A stretch of 64,000 bases of DNA, from NCBI RefSeq assembly GCF_028649655.1, contig NZ_JAQSLN010000001.1:744001-808000 (forward strand), read 5' to 3'. A program made the translations under genes and the position numbers. Position 1 is the first letter of the stretch; every line of letters starts with the position of its first letter. Below are positions 23,009 through 53,367 of this stretch, piece by piece. The stretch comes from Halobacteriovorax sp. GB3 (lineage in GTDB: Bacteria; Bdellovibrionota; Bacteriovoracia; Bacteriovoracales; Bacteriovoracaceae). The notes under the pieces were generated by a model. The model was not told the DNA's origin and ran no database searches. It saw only the letters and a list, made by a program, of their open reading frames with translations.

Positions 23009-23107
23009 GGTGGCATTTTGTCATCAGTGTCACTTATGGGACCAATTAGATTTAGTTAATTCTTACCAGTCCTACGTCATAATCGTTAGTTACAACTTTT
23101 CAAATTT

Positions 23108-23123
23108 TGGCACAGCGCTTGCT
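23108..23123 (+). promoter_or_regulatory. Sigma-54 promoter of the first DksA/TraR gene
   Basis: TGGCAC-N5-TTGCT, a near-exact match to the sigma-54 consensus with the required GG-N10-GC spacing. Transcription should start near 23134, about 130 bases before the ATG, leaving a long leader. Such promoters need an enhancer-binding ATPase; none is in the window. Confidence 0.85.
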
Positions 23124-23133
23124 CTATGTCATG

Positions 23134-23264
23134 GCAACAGGATGGGCCGCTAGGATGGTGGTCTCGATCAGGAAGATCACAGGGTTCATGACAGAACGCG
23201 AACATCCGCAGGAGAAACCCTTGTTCATTGAAGAACAAGACCACACAGGAGAAAGGGGTACATT
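23134..23264 (+). promoter_or_regulatory. Long leader with five AGGA motifs and small hairpins
   Basis: AGGA occurs at 23139, 23152, 23170, 23210 and 23247. The third lies in the loop of GATC-aggaa-GATC (23167-23178), and the second in the loop of a weak GGCC/GGTC stem. A 7-bp hairpin CTTGTTC/GAACAAG is at 23220-23239. Repeated GGA in loops plus one near the ribosome site is the layout of CsrA/RsmA-bound leaders. CsrA involvement is inference. Confidence 0.45.
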
Positions 23265-23711
23265 ATGGCAATCAATCTTGAGCACTTCAAAAACTTATTC
23301 TTAGCAATGAAAGAAGATAACTCTCACTTAGAGACAGAAGCTAAGGGCGAGCTCGATTCGAGGTTATCAGGAGATGATGCTGACCTAGCAATGGCCGAAA
23401 GAGATCGCTCTATGGTTTTAAAACTAAATCAAAGAAACGCTTTCTATAATCGTAAAATTGATGAGGCCCTTACAAAAATTGAAGAAGGAGAGTTTGGGTT
23501 ATGCGAAGAGTGTGGAGATGAGATTTCTGAGAAGCGCTTATTAGCAAGACCAACTGCTTGCCTATGCATCAACTGTAAGGAAGAAAATGAAAGAGGCGAA
23601 GGACACTTACTCTACGCTAAAAGAAGCAAAACGAGAGGACAAGAGTTCATCGTTAACGGTGAAAACATCGTTAAGGCCTTTAAAGAAGTTAGCCGCCATC
23701 AGGCCGGTTAA
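23265..23711 (+). CDS. DksA/TraR-family zinc-finger protein
   Basis: Predicted secondary-channel regulator of RNA polymerase. A helical N-terminal half forms the coiled coil; at its expected tip is DDADLA (37-42), matching the DxxDxA motif that DksA needs for activity. A four-cysteine zinc finger follows: C80, C83, C101 and C104 (GLCEECG ... CINCK), with GEFGLCEECGDEI typical of the family. The tail of about 45 residues is basic and novel. At 148 residues it is DksA-sized. It sits alone between a sigma-54 promoter and a terminator, so it is produced under a specific signal rather than constitutively. Confidence 0.88.
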   Translation: MAINLEHFKNLFLAMKEDNSHLETEAKGELDSRLSGDDADLAMAERDRSMVLKLNQRNAFYNRKIDEALTKIEEGEFGLCEECGDEISEKRLLARPTACLCINCKEENERGEGHLLYAKRSKTRGQEFIVNGENIVKAFKEVSRHQAG

Positions 23712-23727
23712 TCCCTATAATTAACTG

Positions 23728-23750
23728 GGCTTCTCTTAGGAGAAGCCTTT
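23728..23750 (+). terminator. Rho-independent terminator
   Basis: Perfect 8-bp stem GGCTTCTC/GAGAAGCC with a TTAG loop and a short T-rich tail. Confidence 0.8.
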
Positions 23751-23829
23751 GCAATTTTTAGATAGATATCTTCTAATCTATATTATTTTGATTCCGCAAT
23801 TTTTTGTTTATAACTTAGACATAAAAGAA

Positions 23830-23866
23830 AAGGAGGGTGAAGGTTGCACCCCCAAGGAGGAATCAA
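23830..23866 (+). promoter_or_regulatory. Hairpin between two Shine-Dalgarno-like sites
   Basis: AGGAGGG precedes a GGGTG/CACCC hairpin, and AAGGAGG follows it 6 bases before the ATG at 23867. The first purine tract could compete with the second, so the element may tune translation. Function is not shown. Confidence 0.35.
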
Positions 23867-24247
23867 ATGAAAGCTTTAATACCACTTCTTATCGGCGCTC
23901 TCATGGCCGCACCATCACTAGCAAACGATTGCTATGATAAATTCATTGAAGACGGTGCCTATGATAGCCGCTCATTTCAAATTCCTGACTATCAATTAGA
24001 AAATGACTTCGAGTCTGAATCGCTTGATCTTTCGAAAGAGGCCGTGGTTCAAGTGGCAAAAAACTTAGGTTGTCACGAAAGTGAACTTGGACTTCACAAT
24101 AAATCAGCTCAAGTTGCTCGATGCCAAGAAATTGTTCCAGGCAATGAACTCTCTAAAGTTTGTTATCTGGAGTCTGATGTTGGCTACTTTATGATTTCTA
24201 AGGATATGCTCAGTAACATTAACATTATTTTTAATCGCTGGGACTAG
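23867..24247 (+). CDS. Small exported protein of unknown family
   Basis: Unrecognised 126-residue protein with a signal peptide (MKALIPLLIGALMAAPSLA-NDC). The mature chain is acidic and has four cysteines (NDCY, LGCHE, ARCQE, VCYLE). Segment LSKEAVVQVAKNLGCHE looks helical and the rest short strands. Start is fixed by an excellent AAGGAGG site; a longer in-frame start at 23837 would put that site inside the gene. The next small exported gene begins 8 bases after the stop, so the two are an operon located between two DksA/TraR genes. Confidence 0.7.
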   Translation: MKALIPLLIGALMAAPSLANDCYDKFIEDGAYDSRSFQIPDYQLENDFESESLDLSKEAVVQVAKNLGCHESELGLHNKSAQVARCQEIVPGNELSKVCYLESDVGYFMISKDMLSNINIIFNRWD

Positions 24248-24255
24248 GAGGAATT

Positions 24256-24672
24256 ATGAAAATATTTCTTGTCCTTTTAATTGCAGTTTTAATTTTTAGC
24301 CCGTCATATGCTCAGGATAATGATCTTCTCTATGCTAACGACTCCCTAATCATGGCAAGTGAAGATCTTCCTGTTGGGCAATTTCTTTCATTTCAAAAAA
24401 ATAAACGACTTCCTGAGAACTGTGAATCAATTGATCAAAGTGAAGTTGAAAAGTTTTATGATGAGGCCGTCGCAAATTATATTGAATTTTACGGCGATGA
24501 TGAAGGAATTAACTGGCAAAATGCTAGGGCCCAATTAGTGAATCTTTTAGATGAAAATATTGTTGGCTGTCCAATGGATAACTCTGATGATCTTGCATCG
24601 GAGAGAGTTTATGAAGTCTATGAAAAAGATTCAGGGCGGTTCCTAATGGGACTGATACAATTAATTCACTAG
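24256..24672 (+). CDS. Small acidic exported protein of unknown family
   Basis: Unrecognised 138-residue protein. Signal peptide about 1-19 (ending SYA-QD). The mature chain is strongly acidic with only two cysteines (ENCES and VGCPM), so one disulfide is possible, and includes a helical stretch EVEKFYDEAVANYIEFYGDDEG. A good AGGAGGA site overlaps the end of the previous gene, implying coupled translation with it. A strong terminator follows. No functional clue other than its co-expression with another small exported protein. Confidence 0.68.
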   Translation: MKIFLVLLIAVLIFSPSYAQDNDLLYANDSLIMASEDLPVGQFLSFQKNKRLPENCESIDQSEVEKFYDEAVANYIEFYGDDEGINWQNARAQLVNLLDENIVGCPMDNSDDLASERVYEVYEKDSGRFLMGLIQLIH

Positions 24673-24687
24673 AGACAATCTTCTTTT

Positions 24688-24711
24688 GGCCCCATTCTTT
24701 GGGGCCTTTTT
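24688..24711 (+). terminator. Rho-independent terminator
   Basis: Stem GGCCCC/GGGGCC with a 7-base loop and five T. Confidence 0.9.
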
Positions 24712-24755
24712 ATCACCAAAACAACCAAGTTCTATTGATTATCAGACGAAAAAAT

Positions 24756-24771
24756 TGGCATCGATTTAGCA
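24756..24771 (+). promoter_or_regulatory. Sigma-54-like promoter of the second DksA/TraR gene
   Basis: TGGCAT-N5-TAGCA keeps GG and GC 10 bases apart, with one deviation from TTGCW. Expected transcription start near 24782, immediately before an AGGA-loop hairpin. The same arrangement upstream of the first DksA/TraR gene strengthens the call. Confidence 0.6.
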
Positions 24772-24783
24772 TAGTATAAGACA

Positions 24784-24800
24784 TCTTCCAGGAGGGAAGA
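24784..24800 (+). promoter_or_regulatory. AGGA-loop hairpin at the 5' end of the leader
   Basis: Perfect 6-bp stem TCTTCC/GGAAGA whose loop is AGGAG. This is the geometry of a high-affinity CsrA site (GGA in a hairpin loop) and falls at the predicted 5' end of the mRNA. The protein that would bind is not in the window. Confidence 0.5.
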
Positions 24801-24836
24801 CAATAGCTAAAAAGTAGAACGTAAAGAAGGGTGCCA

Positions 24837-25256
24837 ATGGACGATCGTACGTTAGACCATTTTAAAGAATTATTTATTGCGATGAAAAAAAAGCAATTAC
24901 AGGGAATTTACAATTTAGATAAAGAAGACTGGGGCGATCATGATCAAACTTTAAGGATGAAGTTAGAACAGAAGCGAAGTCATTATCTAAAAAAAATCAA
25001 CAATGCACTAAAACGAATTGAACAAGGAACGTTTGGTTTATGTACTGAGTGCGACGGTGTCATTGAGGCCGAGAGGATCTTTATGAAGCCAACAACTGAA
25101 AGATGTCAGTTGTGTGTTGATAACGATGTCTTAACCGATAGAGAAGTTTCAACAAGAGTAGGAAATGTTTTAGAAAAAATTGTTCCCTTTCCTGTTAATC
25201 TCTCTGAAGGCGCAAAGATATTGCCGTTTAGACCAAGAGAAGAAACAACGTTATAA
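24837..25256 (+). CDS. DksA/TraR-family zinc-finger protein, second copy
   Basis: A 139-residue relative of the protein at 23265, sharing the opening DHFKELFIAMK and the helical N-terminal half. The zinc finger is C69, C72, C90 and C93 (FGLCTECDG ... RCQLC). The tip motif is degenerate: D31 and D34 are there but the Ala position is Asp36, so it may bind RNA polymerase without full DksA activity. The tail (about 100-139) differs from the first copy. I start at ATG 24837, 6 bases after GAAGG; a GTG two codons upstream is less likely. Probable tandem paralogue with its own sigma-54-like promoter. Confidence 0.85.
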   Translation: MDDRTLDHFKELFIAMKKKQLQGIYNLDKEDWGDHDQTLRMKLEQKRSHYLKKINNALKRIEQGTFGLCTECDGVIEAERIFMKPTTERCQLCVDNDVLTDREVSTRVGNVLEKIVPFPVNLSEGAKILPFRPREETTL

Positions 25257-53351: not shown

Positions 53352-53367
53352 TGGCACTAGAATTGCT
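53352..53367 (+). promoter_or_regulatory. Sigma-54 promoter of the HExxH exported protein gene
   Basis: TGGCAC-N5-TTGCT, matching the sigma-54 consensus with exact GG-N10-GC spacing. Transcription should start near 53378, leaving a leader of about 105 bases that contains a long stem. Confidence 0.85.

Follow-up and report, generated by a model that had tools for sequence, protein, structure and literature searches.

Conserved sigma-54-type promoters and GGA-loop leaders of DksA-type genes in Halobacteriovorax and its relatives

What controls two DksA/TraR-type genes that each lie behind a sigma-54-type site and a leader with GGA motifs? Both are in a 64-kb window, the whole stretch of DNA analyzed here (G000:C1:744001-808000), where G000 is the 3.62-Mb genome of Halobacteriovorax sp. 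GB3; G001 is a congener. The original prediction read the locus as a three-layer switch, consisting of an enhancer-binding ATPase, CsrA-type control and a DksA-like factor, that would fit a life-cycle transition such as attack to growth phase.

Two DksA/TraR-type genes and their promoters

The genes and their putative promoters are as follows.

23108..23123, + strand: sigma-54 promoter 1, TGGCAC-N5-TTGCT (TGGCACAGCGCTTGCT), a pattern match conserved in the DksA1 clade
23265..23711, + strand: gene 1, DksA-type protein of 148 aa with a C4 zinc finger and a DDADLA tip, from ORF translation, domain searches and alignment
24756..24771, + strand: sigma-54 promoter 2, TGGCAT-N5-TAGCA (TGGCATCGATTTAGCA), a pattern match with identical layout in the congener G001
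24837..25256, + strand: gene 2, diverged DksA/TraR-type paralogue of 139 aa, C4 kept and tip motif lost, from ORF translation, domain searches and alignment

Both sigma-54-type sites are present where they had been predicted, with GG-N10-GC at -24/-12 ahead of both genes, and the promoter-and-gene layout of gene 1 and gene 2 is also found in G001. The pattern TGGCAYN5TWGCW has three matches in the window compared with 0.14 expected from dinucleotide shuffles, and G000 as a whole contains 44 sigma-54-pattern sites, compared with three for a reversed-pattern control. The third match in the window (53352-53367) is 5' of the gene for a predicted secreted protein of ~800 aa; it has neither a high score for the upstream activator site (UAS) described below nor GGA hairpins.

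Both products are four-cysteine proteins of the DksA/TraR type, as had been proposed. A DxxDxA motif at the coiled-coil tip is a defining feature of DksA. Gene 1 reaches the Pfam zf-dskA_traR cut-off, its cysteines are arranged as CEEC...CINC, and its DDADLA stretch aligns with the tip of E. coli DksA (DxxDxA). Because its score against the NCBIfam equivalog TIGR02420 (87.6 bits) does not reach the cut-off of 115.5, we call it DksA/TraR-type and not a certified DksA. Gene 2 is below the Pfam cut-off and has sub-cut-off NCBIfam matches alone, the best being TIGR02890 (48.0 bits); no DxxDxA tip was found in the alignment, where this segment is shortened and replaced. The proposed third layer, a DksA-like factor reprogramming RNA polymerase, is plausible for gene 1, whose tip is intact; in gene 2 the tip is lost. 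The tree is based on few columns and leaves many forks open; in it, gene 2 and the copy in the congener fall within the gene-1 clade on a long branch, which is consistent with gene 2 being a diverged genus-level duplicate that is found in this genus only.

Two small proteins, both predicted to be secreted, are encoded between the paralogues (23867-24672). Neither gave a Pfam or NCBIfam match, and the first has an obvious counterpart in G001.

Promoter conservation in the DksA1 clade

We compared 134 DksA-type upstream regions (30 loci among the matches listed, 100 further stretches, two paralogues from G000, gene 2, and gene 2 of the congener), and took a score of at least 19 as a strong sigma-54 site. 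The DksA1 clade comprises 38 sequences from 35 of the 48 family genomes among these rows, which derive from the matches listed; the rows examined include no clade member from the other 13 family genomes. A strong site precedes 35 of the 38 clade rows compared with 4 of the 96 other rows (Fisher p 3e-24), and the tree groups the sigma-54-preceded DksA rows into one clade. The clade exceptions are L088 and L114, which have weaker sites, and L111, which begins at a contig end. Strong-site rows outside the clade are L215, L234, L250 and L277. The sigma-54 site is nearly universal in the DksA clade of gene 1 and rare in the DksA paralogues.

A shared upstream repeat

A recurrent imperfect palindrome near GGGGCATTTTGNCACC occurs upstream of the sigma-54 sites, with a log-likelihood of 97.1 compared with 20.9-25.4 for three shuffled sets; this control applies to a palindromic 16-bp motif, and the scans used a non-palindromic motif without such a control. 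The null 95% threshold of 11.1 was derived from 200-nt windows and then applied to 140-nt ones. The candidate sites at the two promoters are as follows.

23010..23025, + strand: candidate UAS half-palindrome GTGGCATTTTGTCATC, ~100 bp upstream of promoter 1, score 18.6 against a null 95% of 11.1, with the motif trained on the same promoter set
24702..24717, + strand: candidate UAS of promoter 2, from the UAS motif scan, ambiguous because it overlaps a terminator stem at 24688-24706

The threshold is exceeded at 36 of 40 dksA promoters, a count with some circularity, given that those promoters served as the training set of the motif. UAS scores of at least 12 in G000 belong to dksA1, gene 2, L160, L166 and L169. 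The conserved repeat suggests that one activator may be shared among these promoters. With a nearly clade-wide site, an rpoN gene in the genome and an upstream repeat that fits an enhancer-binding ATPase site, the first proposed layer, sigma-54 control, has strong comparative support. L166 covers the start of a predicted secreted protein, protease-like by eye, behind GATC-AGGAA-GATC.

We also examined 95 non-dksA sigma-54 sites from five genomes, including sites inside genes and dropping one near a locus end. A GGA hairpin of at least 5 bp is found at 8 of the 14 high-UAS sites compared with 12 of the 81 others (Fisher p 0.0014), and two or more GGA hairpins of at least 4 bp at 5/14 compared with 5/81 (p 0.0056). 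GGA count alone is not significantly associated with the UAS at these 95 sites (p 0.18), and the rank correlation is of borderline significance (p 0.051). Among the eight high-UAS sites with a GGA hairpin, L169 and L357 are not CsrA-like, and L329 and L351 are just upstream of dksA1. A general rule by which a sigma-54 site with a UAS leads to a GGA leader is weakly supported; the association is real but modest. In G014 (L329) and G008 (L351), an ORF of ~50 aa upstream of dksA1 has its own UAS and sigma-54 site, and its leader carries three GGA hairpins.

GGA loops in the leaders

The leader elements in the window are as follows.

23133..23264, + strand: leader 1, with five GGA motifs, from a predicted transcription start; fold z -2.67
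23166..23178, + strand: GATC-AGGAA-GATC hairpin holding the third GGA, a candidate CsrA site from sequence and predicted fold
23248..23250, + strand: fifth GGA, within the Shine-Dalgarno region of gene 1 (ACAGGAGAAAGGGG), from sequence
24784..24800, + strand: TCTTCC-AGGAG-GGAAGA hairpin at the start of leader 2, from sequence; main element of the predicted fold of leader 2

The five AGGA motifs of leader 1 (GGA at 23140, 23153, 23171, 23211 and 23248), one of them in a GATC hairpin loop, and the hairpin that opens leader 2 were recovered as the original prediction described them. The counterpart of the leader-2 hairpin in G001 is CTCCT-AGGAA-GGGAG. A GGA overlaps the Shine-Dalgarno region in gene 1 and not in gene 2, and the predicted fold of leader 1 pairs part of some GGA sites. 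The GGA stems of leader 1 are 4 bp only, with none of 5 bp under the strict stem rule, and for this reason the case rests on the relatives.

Under that rule a GGA counts as looped in a hairpin with a loop of 4-8 nt and a stem of at least 5 bp without mismatch, with one G-U pair allowed and the last 18 nt of the leader excluded. We applied it to 39 leaders. This set includes L088, which has a weaker -12 element, L195, which belongs to the clade but has an unusual site, and the non-clade leaders L215, L234, L250 and L277, the last from another family; it leaves out L249, L264 and L281, whose sites looked weak on inspection by eye, and L279 (TGG start failed). Outside the Shine-Dalgarno region, 56 of 164 GGA are in hairpin loops. 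Dinucleotide shuffles of the leaders give 4.6 +/- 2.1 looped GGA, with a maximum of 11 in 200 runs, and with the 5' flank of one GGA joined to a 3' flank taken from another the count is 7.3 +/- 2.6, with a maximum of 17 in 500. GGA is first among the 64 trinucleotides in looped fraction. Upstream regions of 85 weak-site genes, mostly paralogues, have 14 looped GGA out of 142. The 35 clade leaders alone, a set with L195 and without gene 2 and its congener copy, have 53 out of 152.

Nearly everywhere the stems vary between genomes, but the loop keeps its AGGA-like sequence; examples are gatcttcc-AGGAA-ggaagatc, cttcc-AGGAA-gggag and agttagc-AAGGAA-gctaact. Conservation of GGA loops among relatives had been proposed as a check, and the loops are indeed kept as the stems change. 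The leaders are under selection for GGA in loops beyond chance across relatives; a selected loop on a stem of free sequence matches what CsrA binding predicts.

csrA, rpoN and fliW

Absence of csrA and rpoN had been named as evidence against the prediction. We looked for both and found one copy of each in G000, along with fliW; csrA is between a flgL-like gene, recognized by eye, and fliW. The CsrA translation has L4, R6 and R44, which we take to be residues with roles in CsrA, and also N55. A role for N55 is given in a section of PMC13407953.

We found csrA in 65 and rpoN in 73 of the 78 genomes searched. Four family genomes (G013, G030, G033 and G041) gave no csrA match, and the match in G017 is a fragment at the end of a contig. 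In G013 and G030, each with a completeness of about two-thirds, no rpoN match was obtained either. G033 is rated 100% complete in a fragmented assembly and has GGA leaders on two clade genes; it stands against the CsrA model unless its assembly misses csrA. Searches of G022 (95% complete, fragmented) and G038 gave no rpoN match despite a sigma-54-type site before dksA. With GGA loops kept and csrA present, the second proposed layer has strong comparative support, and the part played by CsrA itself is a prediction.

Small RNAs behind sigma-54 sites

Two candidate RNAs elsewhere in G000 also follow sigma-54 sites.

G000:C3:724374-724472, - strand: RNA R1 (L171/L370), ~100 nt, with GUGUGUGU, a GGA loop, a UGUCUCUC stretch and a terminator; model match behind a sigma-54 site
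G000:C2:61509-61720, + strand: L160, candidate sigma-54-preceded intergenic RNA with two UUCAAGGAUGAA GGA hairpins and a CAUUCCCUCUCUCCC stretch, partly conserved in G001 (L399)

R1 was first spotted in L171, L288, L294 and L311, and a model was built. The model matches 33 of the 48 family genomes and none of 30 others. A sigma-54 site is present at 29 of the 30 fetched loci, the thirtieth being cut by a contig end, and the GGA loop is readable at all 30. Two helices covary, with double changes at 6 of 11 pairs and none of 500 shuffles as high, in an alignment fitted to the model. Rfam at gathering scores gave no match for the window or for 13 loci, R1 among them. RNAs of the CsrB/RsmY type are defined by multiple GGA stem-loops; R1 has one clear GGA loop and a partly paired AGGAG, and we rejected it as a CsrB-type sponge.

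Another apparently conserved sigma-54-preceded RNA (L169, L320, L357) reads CCGGACAA...GGCCUUGG...ACCGGC; its UAS score is high, and none of its loops is CsrA-like.

We tentatively suggest a coherent feed-forward loop, in which one sigma-54 activator might drive both CsrA-target mRNAs (dksA1, the secreted-protein gene and others) and GGA small RNAs that withdraw CsrA, alongside FliW. RNA and protein antagonists of CsrA would then act in the same cell.

Proposed mechanism and alternatives

The promoter match and its conservation, the selection for GGA loops across relatives, and the presence of rpoN, csrA and fliW were computed. The arrangement is probably best explained by stacked control of gene 1, with sigma-54 and an activator, a CsrA-repressed GGA leader and a DksA-type factor. 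RNA polymerase with sigma-54 would transcribe gene 1 with the help of an enhancer-binding activator at the conserved upstream repeat. Several GGA motifs would be exposed on the ~130-nt leader, in hairpin loops in some cases and at the ribosome-binding site in one. CsrA dimers could repress translation by binding a loop of high affinity and bridging from there to the Shine-Dalgarno region. Repression would be lifted once FliW or GGA-bearing RNAs withdraw CsrA, and the DksA-type protein would then redirect RNA polymerase. Gene 2, as a genus-level duplicate, may be under similar control with altered activity. We infer CsrA binding, its repressive sign, the activator and the physiological role; taken as inference, the mechanism overall is well supported. 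The attack-to-growth reading is speculative. Sections of a Bdellovibrio study (PMC3627812) describe mapped attack-phase promoters, most of them FliA-type, and connect the life-cycle switch with FliA and with a c-di-GMP riboswitch RNA.

The leader might instead be mainly a trans-acting CsrA sponge, a dual-function mRNA for which control of DksA is secondary. Clade leaders have a median of six GGA including the Shine-Dalgarno region, which is within the ordinary range of cis targets, but some have up to eight GGA and up to five hairpin loops. The flaA mRNA of Campylobacter jejuni provides a precedent, as far as the relevant part of PMC4894983 describes it. We consider a sponge unlikely.

It is also conceivable that the sigma-54 promoter is real and the GGA hairpins are bound by a factor other than CsrA, or are plain structure around ribosome binding. 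CsrA binding to the leader is a prediction, and G033 is without a csrA match. However, the kept GGA loop, the freely changing stems and the preference for AGGA are CsrA-site-like, and csrA is widespread in the genomes searched; we regard this alternative as quite improbable. Chance would mean purine-rich leaders and an accidental -24/-12 match in a low-GC genome whose Shine-Dalgarno sites are AGGA-like. It is contradicted by the shuffle, swapped-flank and paralogue controls, which rule out plain purine richness and leave chance a negligible likelihood.

Comparison with known systems

We did not find the arrangement reported in open-licence PMC papers on Bdellovibrio, Bacteriovorax, Halobacteriovorax, CsrA, DksA, RpoN and FliW. 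If the mechanism is true, a DksA-type polymerase regulator is tied to two upstream control layers in a presumably predatory family. A 2020 review that also covers E. coli CsrA states, in one section, that whether FliW and sRNAs jointly modulate CsrA in any species remains to be determined (PMC7652899). In this family csrA is next to fliW, GGA-loop leaders are conserved and GGA RNAs follow sigma-54 sites, and the joint question is therefore testable there.

The GGA loops are shared with the antagonist RNAs of the Gac/Rsm (RsmY/Z) and CsrB/C systems, which CsrA-family proteins bind, as is predicted here. Those RNAs are driven by GacA/UvrY according to sections of PMC7652899 and PMC8249394, whereas the candidate RNAs here are behind sigma-54 sites and have only one or two GGA loops. 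Campylobacter jejuni, in the part of PMC4894983 on flaA and RpoN-dependent flagellar mRNAs under CsrA-FliW, has the same FliW-type CsrA, GGA-motif leaders and some RpoN-dependent targets. However, those targets are flagellar, whereas here the target is a DksA-type regulator with a probable shared activator site.

The closest parallel in target is E. coli, where CsrA represses dksA post-transcriptionally (Edwards 2011, as cited in a section of the review PMC7652899); CsrA acts at that level on a DksA gene there, as predicted here. That section adds that the effect of CsrA can be masked there, as DksA feeds back on the transcription of its own gene, and it mentions neither a sigma-54 promoter nor a multi-hairpin leader, both of which are conserved here. 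The individual control layers are known, and we would call their conservation here striking. CsrA was already known to regulate dksA in E. coli; the present case departs from that one in its conserved sigma-54 promoter, its multi-hairpin leader and its FliW-type CsrA.
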